This document shows positions 3,201 through 51,523 of a DNA stretch of 64,000 nt, in pieces. Under the pieces are notes generated by a model that was not told the DNA's origin, ran no database searches, and saw only the letters and a program-made list of their open reading frames with translations. A program made the translations under genes and the position numbers. The DNA is from Betaproteobacteria bacterium (lineage in GTDB: Bacteria > Pseudomonadota > Gammaproteobacteria > Burkholderiales > Casimicrobiaceae): NCBI GenBank assembly GCA_016861105.1, contig BOKS01000007.1, positions 62,001-126,000 on the forward strand, read 5' to 3'. Position 1 is the stretch's first letter, and each line of letters opens with the position of its first letter.

Positions 3201-3492
3201 CCCGATCGTCGGGGTGAACACGTTCCGCAATCCGCACGGCGACCCGATCCCCGACGCGCTCGAGCTCGCGCGCTCGACGCCGGAGGAGAAGGAGTCGCAG
3301 CTCGCGCGCCTCGCGGACTTCCACGCGCGCCACGCGGCCGAGGCTCCTGCGGCGCTGGCGCGGCTGAGGCGGACCGTCGTCGACGGCGGCAACGTGTTCG
3401 CCGAGCTGATGGACACGGTGCGCGTGTGCTCGCTCGGGCAGATCACGCACGCGCTGCTCGAGGTCGGCGGGCAGTACCGGCGCAGCATGTAG
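226..3492 (+). CDS. icmF: Fused isobutyryl-CoA mutase (B12-binding domain, MeaB-type GTPase, mutase domain)
   Basis: 1088 aa; N-terminal B12-binding region, central P-loop GTPase ([18 protein letters not shown]), C-terminal mutase with [24 protein letters not shown]; IcmF architecture. Confidence 0.95.
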
Positions 3493-3571
3493 CGCGAGCA
3501 CCGCGTTTTCGGCGACACTTGGCGTCTCGCGGCGCGGCTCCCGTGCCGTTCCGGCCTGCAAGGAGTCATCC

Positions 3572-4528
3572 ATGTCGCAAATCGTCACGGTCTTCGGCGC
3601 CACCGGCGCGCAGGGGGGCGGCGTCGCGCGCGCCGCGCTCGCCGATCCCGCGCAGCGCTTCCGCGTGCGCGCGGTGACGCGCAAGCCCGACGCGCCCGCC
3701 GCGAAGGCGCTTCGCGACGCCGGCGCGGAAGTCGTCGCCGCCGACCTCGACGATCCCGCGAGCGTCGGGAGCGCGCTGCGGGGCGCGGACGCGGCGTTCT
3801 GCGTGACCAGCTTCTGGGAGCACTTCTCGCCCGAGCGGGAGCTCGCGCAAGCCCGGGCGATGGCCGAGGCGGCGGCCGCGGCCGGCGTGAAGCACGTCGT
3901 CTGGTCGACGCTCGAGGACACGCGGCGCTTCGTGCCGCCGGGCACCCCCGGCTGGAAGGTGCTGGGCGGCCGGTTCAACGTCCCCCACTTCGACGCGAAG
4001 GGCGAGGCGGACGCGTTCTTCGCCGAGCGCGGCGTGCCCACGACGCGGCTGCTGACGTCGTTCTACTGGGAGAACCTGATCCACTTCGGCATGCAGCCGC
4101 AGCGCGGTGCGGACGGCGTGCTGCAGTTCGTGCTGCCGATGGGCGAGGCGCGGCTGCCGGGCATCGCCGTGGAGGACATCGGCGGCTGTGCCTACGCGGT
4201 ACTCGCGCGCGGCGCCGAGTTCGCCGGCCGGGCGGTCGGCATCGCCGGCGAGCACCTGAGCGGCGGCGAGATGGCGCGGCAGCTGTCCGAGGCGCTCGGC
4301 GAGCGCGTGCGCCACGTCTCGCCGACCTTCGAGCAGTACGCCGCGTTCGGATTCCCCGGCGCGGACGACCTCGCGAACATGTTCCGCTTCAACCACGATT
4401 TCGCGCGCGAGTTCTGCGCTGCGCGCGACGTGGCAGCGACGCGCGCGCTGCATCCCCGGCTGCAGAGCTTCGCCGCGTGGCTGGCCGCGAACGCGAAGCG
4501 CATCCCGGTCGAGCCGACGAAGGGCTAG
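3572..4528 (+). CDS. NmrA-like NAD(P)-binding family protein
   Basis: N-terminal Rossmann motif VTVFGATGAQGGGVARAAL; 318 aa; paralogous to the 18301-19257 product. Confidence 0.85.
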   Translation: MSQIVTVFGATGAQGGGVARAALADPAQRFRVRAVTRKPDAPAAKALRDAGAEVVAADLDDPASVGSALRGADAAFCVTSFWEHFSPERELAQARAMAEAAAAAGVKHVVWSTLEDTRRFVPPGTPGWKVLGGRFNVPHFDAKGEADAFFAERGVPTTRLLTSFYWENLIHFGMQPQRGADGVLQFVLPMGEARLPGIAVEDIGGCAYAVLARGAEFAGRAVGIAGEHLSGGEMARQLSEALGERVRHVSPTFEQYAAFGFPGADDLANMFRFNHDFAREFCAARDVAATRALHPRLQSFAAWLAANAKRIPVEPTKG

Positions 4529-44943: not shown

Positions 44944-45699
44944 CCCGGGGTCAGAGCCGTCATCTTCGCGTCCACAAGCCCACGCGGCGTGGCGGCGGGG
45001 CCGCCGGCGGATGCCGACGTCAGCGAGCCATCGCGCGGCCTGCGGCGGCGTTGCGTCGTCGCCCGCGCTGTGGAGCCCTCGATGCGCTCCTTGAAGGCGT
45101 CGCTCCCGAACGCGAGATCGCTCGCCGTCGCCTGGCGCAGCGCCGTGAGCGCCTGCTCGTTGCCCGGTGCATCGCACCAGCGGGCGTACGCGGGGCCGAT
45201 CTCGCGGCCCAGGGTCCTCCATCGCCGGGTGGGGCGCGAGCAAAGGGTCCCGACGCAGGCCGGCGAGACCGGCATAGCCGCTTCATGGCCAGGCACCAGG
45301 TGCCGGGGCCATGCCGGCGCGCACCGGGTCGAGGTCGATGTAGCGGCAGGCGGCGAGGACCTAGGCGTCCTCGCCCACGCGACACGCGCGGTACCTTCCT
45401 TCCCAGAGCGTTCCGGTCCGGCCGCGCGCGAGGTTGACGTAACGAACGAAACGCGCGCCGACCGATTGCATCGTGCGCGACACCGCGCCCAGGTCGAGCG
45501 GCGCGACGAGCAGGTGGACGTGGTTGGTCATGAGCATATGCGCGTGGACCTGCACGCGGTAGTGCGTGACCGCAGCCTGCAGTGCATCGAGATAGAAGCG
45601 GAAGTCGGCCTCGCCGAAGAGGCACCGCCCCCGGTCGTTGCCGCGCTGGACGACGTGCAGCGGGTGGCCCGTCAGGGGGAAGCGCGGACGGCGTGGCAT
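44940..45699 (-). pseudogene. Decayed REP-associated (Y1/RAYT-type) transposase
   Basis: N-terminal MPRRPRFPLTGHPLHVVQRGNDRGRCLFGEADFRFYLDAL..VHAHMLMTNHVHLLVAP; in-frame TAG (45361-45363) and TGA (45283-45285) interrupt VLAACRYIDLDPVRAGMAPAPGAWP / SGYAGLAGLRRDPLLAPHP; C-terminus continues in another frame. Confidence 0.85.
44947..44964 (+). repeat. GGGGTCAGAGCCGTCATC repeat
   Basis: Exact 18-mer also at 48-65, 73-90 and inverted at 32516-32533. Confidence 0.85.
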
Positions 45700-47709: not shown

Positions 47710-49149
47710 TCAGCGGAACGCGTCGGCCCAGTCGCGCGCGTCGTACGCGCTGCGCAGCCGCCAGTCGATCCACTGCGCGCGCAGCGCCTCGCGGACGCCG
47801 CGCAGCGCCGGGTCGTTCCAGCGGTCGCGCTCCTCGTGCGGGTCGTCGGCGAGGTCGAACAGCTGGCCGAAGGACTCGCCGAGGAAGTGCACGAACTTGT
47901 AGCGGTCGGTGCGCACCATCGAGACGAAGTCCGAGAACTGGAAGACGACGTCGCGCCCCTGCTCGCAGTAGACGGCCTCGCGGCCCGCGAATGGTTCGCC
48001 GCGCAGCGCGGGCAGCAGCGAGCGCGCCTCCCACCAGGGCGGCACCTCGCAGCCGGCGAGCTCCATGAGCGCCGGCGCGAGGTCGATCGACTGCACCAGC
48101 GCGTCCACGCGCCCGCGGCCCGGCAGCCGCGGCGACCAGACGACGAGCGGGACGCGCACGACCTCCTCGTACATCGTCCACTTCTGGCTGTGCCCGTGGT
48201 CGCCGAGGCAGTCGCCGTGGTCGGACGTGAACACGACGACGGCGTCGTCGAGCCGCCCGGCCGCGTGCAGCGCCGCGAGCAGGCGGCCGACTTCGTGGTC
48301 GATCAGCGAGACGTTCGCGAGGTAGTGCGCGAGCTGGCGCTCGCGCAGCGGGCGCGGCGCGTCGACGATGTGCGGCGCGGCGTCGTGGTGGCCGGTCGCG
48401 TGCTTGTCGCGCAGCTGGCGGAACGGCGGCGGCTGCGCCTCGAGGTCGTCGCGCCGGACCGGGCGGACCGGCAGATCGCGGCCGCGGTAGCGCGCGATCC
48501 ACGACGCCGGCGGGTCGTAGGGCGGGTGCGGGCCCGGGAACCCGACCTGCAGGAACAGCGGCTCGCCGTCGCCGGCGTGTGCGGTGACGGCCGCGGCGGC
48601 AGCCGTCCCCACGAACGCGTCGGCGTGCAGGTCGTCGGCGAGCGGCCACTCGTAGGCGCCGAGGCGTTGCGCGTAGTCGGGCAGCAGACGGTAGCTCGCG
48701 AGCCCCGGCTTGGCGACGCCCGCGTCGGCCAGCGCCCGGTCCCACGCGTCGACGAAGTCGCGGCCGCGCTTCGCCATCGAGCGGTCCTTGTTCTCGACCA
48801 CGGTGCGCTCGTGGAAGCCCGCCGGCGCGTCCATCGGCTGCGTGTGCATCTTGCCGACGTTGACGCAGCGGTAGCCCGCCTCGGCGAGCCGCTCGACCCA
48901 GGTGCGCCGCCACGTCGAGGCGTTGGTCAGGATGCCGTTGGTGTGCGGGTACACGCCGGTGAACAGGCTCGCGCGCGCCGGCACGCACGAGGCGCCGGTC
49001 ACGTAGCAGCGCGCGAAGTGCGTGCCCTCGCGCACGAGGCGGTCGAGGTGCGGCGTGTCGACGTGCGGGTAGCCGAGCGCCGCGATCGTGTCGTAGCGCT
49101 GCTGGTCGGTGACGACGACGACGATGTCGGGGCGCGGATCCGCCTTCAT
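47710..49149 (-). CDS. Type I sulfatase
   Basis: DIVVVVTDQQRYDTIAALG; CVPARASLFTG (CXPXR formylglycine motif); FTSDHGDCLGDHG. Confidence 0.93.
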   Translation of the reverse strand: MKADPRPDIVVVVTDQQRYDTIAALGYPHVDTPHLDRLVREGTHFARCYVTGASCVPARASLFTGVYPHTNGILTNASTWRRTWVERLAEAGYRCVNVGKMHTQPMDAPAGFHERTVVENKDRSMAKRGRDFVDAWDRALADAGVAKPGLASYRLLPDYAQRLGAYEWPLADDLHADAFVGTAAAAAVTAHAGDGEPLFLQVGFPGPHPPYDPPASWIARYRGRDLPVRPVRRDDLEAQPPPFRQLRDKHATGHHDAAPHIVDAPRPLRERQLAHYLANVSLIDHEVGRLLAALHAAGRLDDAVVVFTSDHGDCLGDHGHSQKWTMYEEVVRVPLVVWSPRLPGRGRVDALVQSIDLAPALMELAGCEVPPWWEARSLLPALRGEPFAGREAVYCEQGRDVVFQFSDFVSMVRTDRYKFVHFLGESFGQLFDLADDPHEERDRWNDPALRGVREALRAQWIDWRLRSAYDARDWADAFR

Positions 49150-50573
49150 GGCGGCGCCTTGTGGAACACGCCGTCCTTCATGATCGCGCGCAGCCGCGCG
49201 CGGTCCTGCAGGATCGCGACGTCGGCGAGCGGGTCGCCGTCGACCAGCAGCAGGTCGGCGAGGGCGCCCGTGCGCAGCACGCCGAGCTCGCCCGGCAGGA
49301 TGGTGCCCACGCGCGCCGAAGGACCGCCCCGAGGCGCGCGTTCCGCCCCCTCGGGGGGCAGCGAAGCCGCGCCAGCGGCGAGCGTGGGGGTCGTCACGCG
49401 CGCCGAAGGACCGCCCCGAGGCGCGCGTTCCGCCCCCTCGGGGGGCAGCGAAGCCGCGCCAGCGGCGAGCGTGGGGGCACACATCAGTTCGCCGCCCCAC
49501 TTCGTCGCGGCGACGATCGCCTCCATCGGCGTGAAGCCCATCAGGTCGACGAAGAACGCGAGGTCGCGCGCGTTGTTGCCGTGCGGGTTCCACGCGAAGC
49601 CGTAGTCGCCGCCGGGCAGCACGCGCACGCCGCGCTTCCTGAGCTCGACCATGCGCTCGCAGGTCATCTCCAGGTCGCGCTCGATGCGCGCGCGCATCGC
49701 CGGCGACGACGGCAGCCCGTACTTCCCCGATTCGTGCAGGCGCGTCCACGTCACCGACATCGCCGGGGCGACGAAGACGCGGTCCTTCGCGGCCTCGAGC
49801 ATGTCGAGCGCCTCGGCGTCGGCGCAGGTCGCGTGGTAGATCACGTCGACGCCGTGGCGCACGCACATCTTCACCGACGCGGCGCTGCGCGCGTGCGCGG
49901 CGACGCGCCTGCCGCGCTCGCGCGCCACCTCGCAGACGGCCGCCACCTCGTCGTCCGCCATCAGCGTCGTCGGCGACGGGATCGCCGGCGTCGACGTGTC
50001 GCCGGAGGGGACGATCTTCAGGACGTCGACCCCTTCGCGGCAGGCCTCGCGCGCGGCACGGCGGAACTCGACCGGACCGTCGCACGGCAGCGTGTACATC
50101 GCCTCGCCGGGGTCGAGGTGCAGCTGCCGCAGGTCGCCCACGCCGCCGGTGACCGTGAGCTGCACGCTCGCCGCCCGCAGGCGCGGCCCCGGGTGCTCGC
50201 CGCGGTCGATCGCGTCGCGCACCACGACGTCGAGGCGCGGCTTCGTGGCCGCGGCCGAGAAGCACGACGTGAAGCCGCAGTCGAGGTAGAGCTTCGCGTG
50301 CCTGAGCGTGGCGAGCAGGTGCTCCTCCACCGGCACGGCGGAGAACTGGGCGGGGTTCGACTGGTCGAGGAACGAGAGGTGCGCGTGCGGCTCGACGAGG
50401 CCCGGCATCAGCGTCGCGCCGGCGCAGTCGACGATCCGGTCGCGCGCATCGGCGGCGATGCTGCCCGGCGCGCCCACGGCGGCGATGCGCTGCCCGTCGA
50501 CGCGCAGGTCGCCGCGGAACGGCGCTGCGCCGCTGCCGTCCAGGATCTGCGCATCGCGGAACAGGACGCTCAT
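49146..50573 (-). CDS. Amidohydrolase family protein (imidazolonepropionase-like) with in-frame repeat insertion
   Basis: LMPGLVEPHAHLSFLDQSNP; GRRVAAHARSAASVKMCVRHGVDVIYHAT; VLPGGDYG; ADLLLVDGDPLADVAIL; ATGA overlap with the sulfatase. Confidence 0.9.
   Translation of the reverse strand: MSVLFRDAQILDGSGAAPFRGDLRVDGQRIAAVGAPGSIAADARDRIVDCAGATLMPGLVEPHAHLSFLDQSNPAQFSAVPVEEHLLATLRHAKLYLDCGFTSCFSAAATKPRLDVVVRDAIDRGEHPGPRLRAASVQLTVTGGVGDLRQLHLDPGEAMYTLPCDGPVEFRRAAREACREGVDVLKIVPSGDTSTPAIPSPTTLMADDEVAAVCEVARERGRRVAAHARSAASVKMCVRHGVDVIYHATCADAEALDMLEAAKDRVFVAPAMSVTWTRLHESGKYGLPSSPAMRARIERDLEMTCERMVELRKRGVRVLPGGDYGFAWNPHGNNARDLAFFVDLMGFTPMEAIVAATKWGGELMCAPTLAAGAASLPPEGAERAPRGGPSARVTTPTLAAGAASLPPEGAERAPRGGPSARVGTILPGELGVLRTGALADLLLVDGDPLADVAILQDRARLRAIMKDGVFHKAPP
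49309..49477. repeat. Tandem pair of identical 82-bp palindrome-containing elements (87-bp period) inside the amidohydrolase ORF
   Basis: 49309-49390 and 49396-49477 read identical (ACGCGCGCCGAAGGACCGCCCCGAGG...GAGCGTGGGGG); each contains GCCCCCTCGGGGGGC. Confidence 0.95.
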
Positions 50574-50627
50574 CGGGGGGCCGCGGCGCGTGCGGGCGGA
50601 GCCCCTCGGCCGCGCGCGCTGCAAATG

Positions 50628-50642
50628 TGGAACACCGTTCCA
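50628..50642. promoter_or_regulatory. IclR-type palindrome TGGAAC-ACC-GTTCCA
   Basis: Extended AAATGTGGAACACCGTTCCATTTT between the divergent amidohydrolase operon and 50696 CDS. Confidence 0.55.
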
Positions 50643-50695
50643 TTTTCGCCGATGACGGGGTAAAGTCAACCGGCACGGCGGACGGGAGGCGGCGG

Positions 50696-51367
50696 ATGGC
50701 GTTGGCGGGCGGCGGCGCGGTGGCGATCTGGCACGACATCGCGCCCGAGGGGCGCGACGAGTTCTACGCGTGGCACGGGCGCGAGCACATGCCCGAGCGG
50801 ATCGCGATCCCGGGGTTCGTGCGCGGACGCCGGTTCGTCGCGATCGAGGGGACGCCGGAGTTCTTCAACCTCTACGAGACCGCGTCCACCGCGGTCGTCA
50901 CCGGCGACGCCTACCTCGCGCGGCTCAATGCGCCCACGCCCTGGACGGTCGCGACGGTCCGGCACTTCCGCGGGGTCGCGCGCTCGCTGTGCGAGGTCGC
51001 GGCCAGCGTGGGCGACGGGATGGGCGGCCTGTGCGCGACGCTCCGCTACGACGTCGGCGCCGCGGACGCGGCAGCCCATCGCGCCGCGATGGCCGCGGCG
51101 TTGCGCGGGCTCGCGCAGGCCCCCGGGGTCGCCGCGGCGCACCTGCTCGTCGCCGACGAGGCGGCGAGCGCGGTCGAGACCGCCGAGAAGCGGGTGCGTG
51201 CCGAAGGCAACCTGATCCCGCGCTGGATCGCGATCGTCGAGGGCTGGGGCGACGCGCCGGCGTTCGTGCAGGCGTGCCGGACGTTCGCGGCCTCCGCCGC
51301 CTTCGCCGGCGCGACCGTCGCGCCGGAGCTCGCCGTCTACCGGCTGCAGAACCAGCGCGAGCGCTGA
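50696..51367 (+). CDS. Hypothetical protein, possible dimeric alpha-beta-barrel/EthD-like
   Basis: AIWHDIAPEGRDEFYAWHGREHMPERIAIPGFVRGRRF; 223 aa from the ATG at 50696. Confidence 0.7.
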   Translation: MALAGGGAVAIWHDIAPEGRDEFYAWHGREHMPERIAIPGFVRGRRFVAIEGTPEFFNLYETASTAVVTGDAYLARLNAPTPWTVATVRHFRGVARSLCEVAASVGDGMGGLCATLRYDVGAADAAAHRAAMAAALRGLAQAPGVAAAHLLVADEAASAVETAEKRVRAEGNLIPRWIAIVEGWGDAPAFVQACRTFAASAAFAGATVAPELAVYRLQNQRER

Positions 51368-51523
51368 GGGGCGCCGCCGGGGCCCCCGCGCCGGGAAACG
51401 AGGGTCAGACTCGAATTTCGCCGGGGCTGCCGCGCGGGCCGGCGCCGACGACGCCCCTCGCGCCGGAATGCCGCGAACGCGTGCGCGGGCGACCCGCGCG
51501 TGACGCGAATGCGGATGCGCGCG

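Follow-up and report, generated by a model that had tools for sequence, protein, structure and literature searches.

An in-frame tandem array of Beta-proteobacterial Repeat Elements within an amidohydrolase gene, and the operon-junction setting of the repeat family

The window analyzed here is a 64,000-nucleotide stretch of contig BOKS01000007.1 (positions 62,001 to 126,000, forward strand) from the Betaproteobacteria bacterium assembly GCA_016861105.1. It contains an amidohydrolase gene that carries a tandem array of a repeat identified below as the Beta-proteobacterial Repeat Element (BRE), followed by a sulfatase-like gene whose ATG overlaps the amidohydrolase stop codon (ATGA). The features, in window coordinates, are as follows.

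49149..50573, minus strand: array-bearing amidohydrolase gene, a 475-codon frame with a match to Pfam Amidohydro_1 (E=1.1e-18)
47710-49151: downstream sulfatase-like gene, with PRK13759 arylsulfatase as its top NCBIfam match, scoring below cut-off
49482..49487, minus strand: CTGATG, putative entry site, like the stop-start sequences ahead of operon-junction arrays
49308..49481, minus strand: inserted segment, 174 nt = 58 codons = 2 x 87, missing in four relatives, with coding score and GC3 below those of its flanks
49395..49477, minus strand: BRE unit 1 (the first on the coding strand), from tandem repeat detection
49308..49390, minus strand: BRE unit 2, identical to unit 1
49453..49466 (unit 1) and 49366-49379 (unit 2), minus strand: GCCGC-TGGC-GCGGC hairpin of the long subtype, from sequence and fold
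49432..49446 (unit 1) and 49345-49359 (unit 2), minus strand: C-tract/G-tract hairpin GCCCCCCGAGGGGGC, already seen in the initial annotation, from sequence and fold
49396..49428 (unit 1) and 49309-49341 (unit 2), minus strand: 3' hairpin with arm ACGCGCGCC, loop TCGGGGCGGTCCTTC, and arm GGCGCGCGT, from covariation

The array is by far the strongest tandem repeat of the window (TRF score of 340 vs 80 for the runner-up). The initial annotation had described two identical copies with an 87-bp period, in frame inside an amidohydrolase, and repeat detection and translation agree on identity, period, and frame; the copies are, however, 83 bp long (83/83 identical, start-to-start distance of 87 bp) and not 82 bp. 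The peptide PTLAAGAASLPPEGAERAPRGGPSARV is indeed encoded twice between GGELM and GTILPGELG, and the insert measures 58 amino acids when counted from the two periods and 60 by alignment. Because two 87-nt units add 174 nt and the gene's frame is free of stops, the amidohydrolase frame stayed open through both copies, as had been claimed. Five of the six frames of the window unit are stop-free, and the one used by the amidohydrolase is not the one with the single stop; it also differs from the micro-ORF frame of the junction arrays considered below. Since the amidohydrolase stop overlaps the start of the sulfatase-like gene, loss of the frame would have affected that downstream gene as well. 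Elsewhere in the window, at a distance of about 3.6 kb, a Y1_Tnp (IS200/RAYT-like) match with an in-frame TAG is found at 45334-45660 on the minus strand. The sequence GGGTCAGACTCGAATT, at 51402-51417 and in L010 (about 3853-3925), represents another dispersed palindrome family with no relation to BRE; in L010 it makes up a nearly perfect inverted repeat that follows a permease gene.

The nearest PDB relative of the amidohydrolase is 3mtw, an L-arginine carboxypeptidase, with 2qs8 as a further relative, and alignment indicates that the expected metal-binding residues (H63, H65, K186, H227, H247, and D323) are all kept. Four relatives (G021, L015, L016, and L018) lack the insert, the nearest being that of G021, which is 74% identical, and at the insert site they read through as GGELM-GMGHELGQV (G021), GGEIM-MRGNELGQI, or GGEIM-KAGNEMGQV, in keeping with the expectation that amidohydrolases normally run uninterrupted here. 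The insert has a codon score of -0.15, compared to +0.49 and +0.74 for its flanks, and a GC3 of 0.78, compared to 0.98 and 1.00. This foreign codon usage and low GC3 make it look recent and unadapted as coding sequence, and it is apparently young. An AlphaFold2 model of the enzyme, built from five sequences, had a mean pLDDT of 52, with the lowest values (22-28) in the insert and low values in the C-terminal part as well. As this model was too weak for placement, PDB alignments and general knowledge of the amidohydrolase fold were used, and these suggest that the insert sits between the last barrel helix and the segment returning to the beta-sandwich.

The BRE was described by Hot et al. (2011; PMC3110155) as a tandem repeat of 75-91 bp with 69% GC and variable copy number, found mostly between genes, with a few bases of overlap at gene ends, and in some cases wholly within coding sequence; no function could be suggested for it. 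In the same work, BRE arrays behave as VNTRs in Bordetella, and two repeats are recorded between BP1793 and lexA of B. pertussis (Table 3, PMC3110155). LexA was searched across the family of Achromobacter agilis; there was no element copy at the A. agilis lexA locus itself, so the lexA comparison needed other genomes, and in one of them (G431, 4.04 Mb), with a LexA 86% identical to that of Achromobacter, two tandem copies of the element lie directly 3' of lexA. The window repeat is assigned to BRE, then, on the strength of lexA synteny in G431 and not by a match to the published BRE sequence. The other features are consistent with this assignment. The unit is 87 bp in the window, with periods of 75-87 bp across the family; arrays have one to four copies; they are mainly intergenic, with some copies within coding sequence; and the informative titles among the matches listed in a pattern scan were all beta-proteobacterial. 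The repeat analyzed here and the BRE thus share length, GC richness, tandem arrangement, occurrence in Betaproteobacteria, overlap with gene ends, and two copies by lexA. An operon-junction rule, micro-ORFs, a covarying hairpin, and an in-frame analysis are absent from the BRE paper (PMC3110155), and a long subtype was seen here in one family only. A literature search on the repeat sequence and translational coupling returned nothing beyond that paper.

Read on its forward strand, the unit consists of CCCCCACGCTYGC, a short spacer or hairpin, GCTGCCCCC, two to three bases, GGGGGCG, a 9-nt arm, a 15-nt loop (TTGGGGCGGCCCGGC or variants), and the complementary arm. The long form has an extra GCGGC hairpin, and the window copies belong to it. 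The GCCCCCTCGGGGGGC hairpin to which the initial annotation drew attention is present, although the complete unit folds no more stably than its composition would lead one to expect (single-unit fold energy z of about -0.7 against shuffles), and the convincing hairpin is another one, at the unit's 3' end. With single-unit folding no better than that of shuffles, the hairpin argument rests instead on covariation. The 3' end of every unit is formed by a covarying stem of 9 bp that closes a conserved, nearly invariant 15-nt loop. Among 79 distinct hairpins, which were anchored on the loop so that pairing did not pick the sequences, 94% of the nine stem positions pair, vs 53% in column shuffles. 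In a subset of 33 hairpins that differ in their 5' arms, pairing reaches 98.5% of cells vs 61.8%, with a covariation score of 0.876 vs 0.179, and the covariation vanishes when the partner is shifted by one to three columns; these 33 were picked by hand from the 79, with some imperfect ones omitted, which makes the 79-hairpin figure the fairer one. Overall, the covariation is strong evidence that the hairpin forms, whether as RNA or as single-stranded DNA. An Rfam 15 scan of window positions 48000-51000 gave no match up to E=1.

A search of the genome for the unit, as the initial annotation had proposed, found four further loci with the same architecture, three of which are clear operon junctions. 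The gene names given here were read from translations, with no family search.

L011, about 2580-2755 (G000:C5): ribosomal spc operon, gap separating rpsH from rplF, array of 2 copies, 78 bp
Between two ABC permease genes: array of 3 copies, 81 bp
L009, about 3460-3720 (G000:C20, about 49950-50220): array at a gspJ/gspK-like junction, 3 copies, 87 bp
Ahead of another gene: a single copy

The three 87-bp copies of L009 form an in-frame N-terminal extension of the GspK-like protein, read from ATGs that overlap the stop of the upstream gene. The element is found in 28 of the 64 genomes of the window's taxonomic family, with up to 90 matches per genome (G014, 90, and G025, 43, are the richest). Its likeness to the dispersed GC-rich intergenic repeats of Burkholderiales, noted at the outset, holds and extends to other Betaproteobacteria: among the matches listed, the short form occurs in Rubrivivax, Denitromonas, Thiomonas, Achromobacter, Paucibacter, Zoogloea, Azoarcus, and Burkholderia, while within a sample of 299 genomes of the order the long form was seen only in the window's family. 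The rpsH-rplF gap holds the two-copy array in the window's genome, measures 17 bp in G002 (the closest by RplF), and contains degraded pieces in G009 and G021; these filled, empty, and degraded states show that a single genus both gains and loses BRE sites. As to MITE-like features, the unit has no clear terminal inverted repeat, and certain sites, such as rpsH-rplF (TGACGG), bear short direct repeats.

The genomic setting of the family was analyzed with 133 nonredundant arrays sampled by pattern, a procedure that favors well-kept copies, and the flanking coding strands were called by a codon model with a frame accuracy of 94% on 240-nt windows. Coding sequence is co-directional on both flanks in 95 of the 105 confidently called arrays. 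The usual share of co-directional neighbors is about 70%; against this value P is 4e-7, a figure that overstates the independence of the arrays, since these share descent. At many junctions, the array occupies the entire gap between the genes. Orientation is also strongly biased: the short form is in sense orientation by 69:5 (30:3 outside the window's family), whereas the long form is mostly antisense (18:3, in genomes of the same family, f1, e.g., L123-L126, L158, and L160). Few long arrays lie in sense, and that of the window is among them. A role as transcription terminator was also considered and is judged unlikely, since arrays lie within the spc operon (rpsH-rplF) and other tight operons and carry no T run.

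At many of these junctions, the upstream gene ends in a stop codon 4-16 nt ahead of the first C tract, with an ATG or GTG that overlaps or follows this stop. From there the frame stays open across the array until a TGA at the foot of the last hairpin, and this TGA overlaps or adjoins the start of the next gene. Among short sense arrays with both ends, the start-to-stop length is divisible by three in 35 of 46, and all 35 are open; single-copy micro-ORFs of this class measure 72, 75, 78, or 81 nt, with one of 96 nt. The same divisibility holds for 14/14 long antisense arrays with both ends (lengths from 84 to 264). In multicopy arrays, the period is divisible by three in 27 of 38, and most of the others have an internal stop followed immediately by a start codon. 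Several arrays have internal copies without the stop that the last copy keeps, as in L118, which has CACTGGACGG inside and CACTGACATGG at the end. A looser ribosome-walk test passed 50 of 71 arrays, a modest excess over the 39.2 ± 2.5 of shuffled ones; its deletion controls were unclean (24/71 with 1 nt deleted and 41/71 with 2 nt deleted) and were left unused. Many arrays outside the window's family lack one end of the micro-ORF, and since arrays share descent, P values for the micro-ORFs overstate the evidence. The pattern itself is present in these sequences, and we infer that the micro-ORFs are translated.

This operon-junction pattern is the most interesting lead of the analysis. One possible reading, which we offer tentatively and rate as less probable than not, is that BREs are translation-transparent junction cassettes, i.e., mobile repeats shaped to keep stop-start coupling between operon genes by a relay of stop/ATG, micro-ORF, and TGA/ATG. 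Unit lengths divisible by three, or internal stop-restart sites, would then maintain the coupling in tandem arrays too, and the 3' hairpin, which has a fixed loop and sits where the downstream gene starts, may set the translation level of that gene. The same transparency would explain the survival of BREs inside genes, as in the window. The BRE family and its genic copies were already published; the junction rule, the micro-ORFs, the covarying stem, and the further in-frame intragenic copies appear to be new here, from the 133 arrays.

The amidohydrolase is not the only enzyme to carry such an insert. In-frame BRE copies were also found in an isoleucyl-tRNA synthetase (L176, two copies), a threonine aldolase (L185, two copies), LpxB (L199), a Pyr_redox_2 protein like NADH dehydrogenase (L195), and, with a less certain frame call, an HrpA-like helicase (L225). 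One further copy lies in frame in a Fic protein of an isolate of Rhodoferax antarcticus, shortly after the HPFDDGNGR motif (L374, 1501-1577). For the isoleucyl-tRNA synthetase (IleRS), LpxB, and threonine aldolase, PDB relatives align on both sides and skip the insert. The insert peptides vary with the frame in which the element is read, an APLGGSExSERGG frame being common to those of L176, L185, and L225. Most bacteria require IleRS and LpxB for viability, and inserts in both argue that such additions can be tolerated.

The window holds a real in-frame, two-copy BRE array, and taken together, these data make it probable that this array, of a repeat whose ordinary home is the operon junction, entered an amidohydrolase gene and is tolerated there as a flexible loop. 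At its home site, the array lies between co-directional genes, often fills the whole gap, and frequently has a micro-ORF that could let ribosomes pass. Insertion may favor stop-start-like sequence, and entry into the amidohydrolase gene would have been at CTGATG, which is out of frame within the gene, resembles a stop-start junction (compare ggacTGATGaaccg in L153 and cgTGATGacgg in L011, both ahead of the first C tract), and could have served as a decoy. The 58 added codons encode a segment rich in Pro, Gly, and Ala between the last barrel helix and the returning beta-sandwich, and this segment would be tolerated as a flexible loop and not selected. The identity of the two copies fits local array expansion, as in the VNTRs of Bordetella (PMC3110155), which could have preceded or followed entry into the gene. 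The initial annotation placed the duplication after the insertion, an order that is not demonstrated, as the element is often tandem (one to four copies) wherever it is found and a ready-made array may have gone in.

Among the alternatives, gene decay, in which the array recently knocked out the enzyme and the open frame is left over from that event, is unlikely but fares best. It would agree with the youth of the insert as judged by codon usage and with the tendency of GC-rich DNA to keep frames open by chance, which the stop-free frames of the unit illustrate. However, apart from the insert the gene is intact, it retains every metal ligand, and coding bias is strong on either side of the array; similar inserts are present in ileS and lpxB, genes essential in most bacteria. 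Exaptation, as first proposed, would have the 58 residues serve the enzyme, for example in oligomer contacts or substrate gating, with the duplication selected. The open frame through two copies and the intact catalytic residues are compatible with such a role, but the insert's codons and GC3 look unadapted, no relative shares it, and the in-frame inserts of unrelated enzymes differ in peptide sequence, which speaks against a shared role; we found no sign of insert function and regard exaptation as very unlikely. The insert is most likely tolerated rather than functional.

Equally improbable, in our judgment, is that the repeat is a REP-like element moved by a RAYT/IS200-type transposase. Like REPs, BREs are short, GC-rich, and hairpin-forming, are found at gene ends, and are sometimes intragenic (PMC3733652). 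REP/BIME sequences are likewise palindromic and can supply stop codons, and REP/BIME clusters coding for 43-82 amino acids are known from Thauera and R. conorii (PMC3733652). However, REP units are 20-40 bp long, carry a tag tetranucleotide (GTAG/CGTC), and are linked to RAYTs (PMC3733652), whereas BRE units measure 75-87 bp, neither tag occurs in the window unit, and no RAYT link was found: the genomes richest in the element (G014 and G025, both incomplete) have no Y1_Tnp, and many are found in an element-free genus (g2). The least likely alternative is an assembly artifact, in which the assembler decided whether one, two, or more copies appear, for although this is a draft genome (28 contigs, 85% complete) and identical 87-bp tandem units are hard for short reads, the locus lies within a 194-kb contig, another locus of the genome has an array of 87-bp period with diverged copies, comparable arrays occur in many other assemblies, and the frame continues correctly into the conserved C-terminal part.

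The boxC/TMECO repeat (PMC4666352) resembles BRE in having a C tract and a pair of G tracts on the same strand, an arrangement that could allow a triplex, but TMECO is always intergenic and has no strand bias, and the third tract of the BRE unit lies beyond another segment. The suggested analogy to Rickettsia palindromic elements (RPEs) holds up: RPEs, like BREs, are short repeats found in frame in unrelated protein genes, conserved ones included (PMC3733652 and general knowledge), and the window array is likewise an in-frame insert in a conserved enzyme that is missing in orthologues. This is a likeness of behavior and not of membership, as by description RPEs are set apart by a presumably unrelated sequence, a different class of bacteria, a different base composition, and the lack of characteristically tandem operon-junction arrays (PMC3733652 and general knowledge).

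BRE thus appears to be a beta-proteobacterial counterpart of RPE, free-living bacteria included, in which a repeat lies in frame within unrelated and even essential enzymes, and the window array is one more such case among several enzymes. The wider operon-junction rule is the part worth pursuing, as it provides a testable rule for a repeat that in 2011 had no suggested function: fixed-orientation operon junctions, many with a micro-ORF and a hairpin at the next start. If the junction pattern is selected, the repeat can spread inside operons without cutting downstream translation, and VNTR copy number could tune translation.
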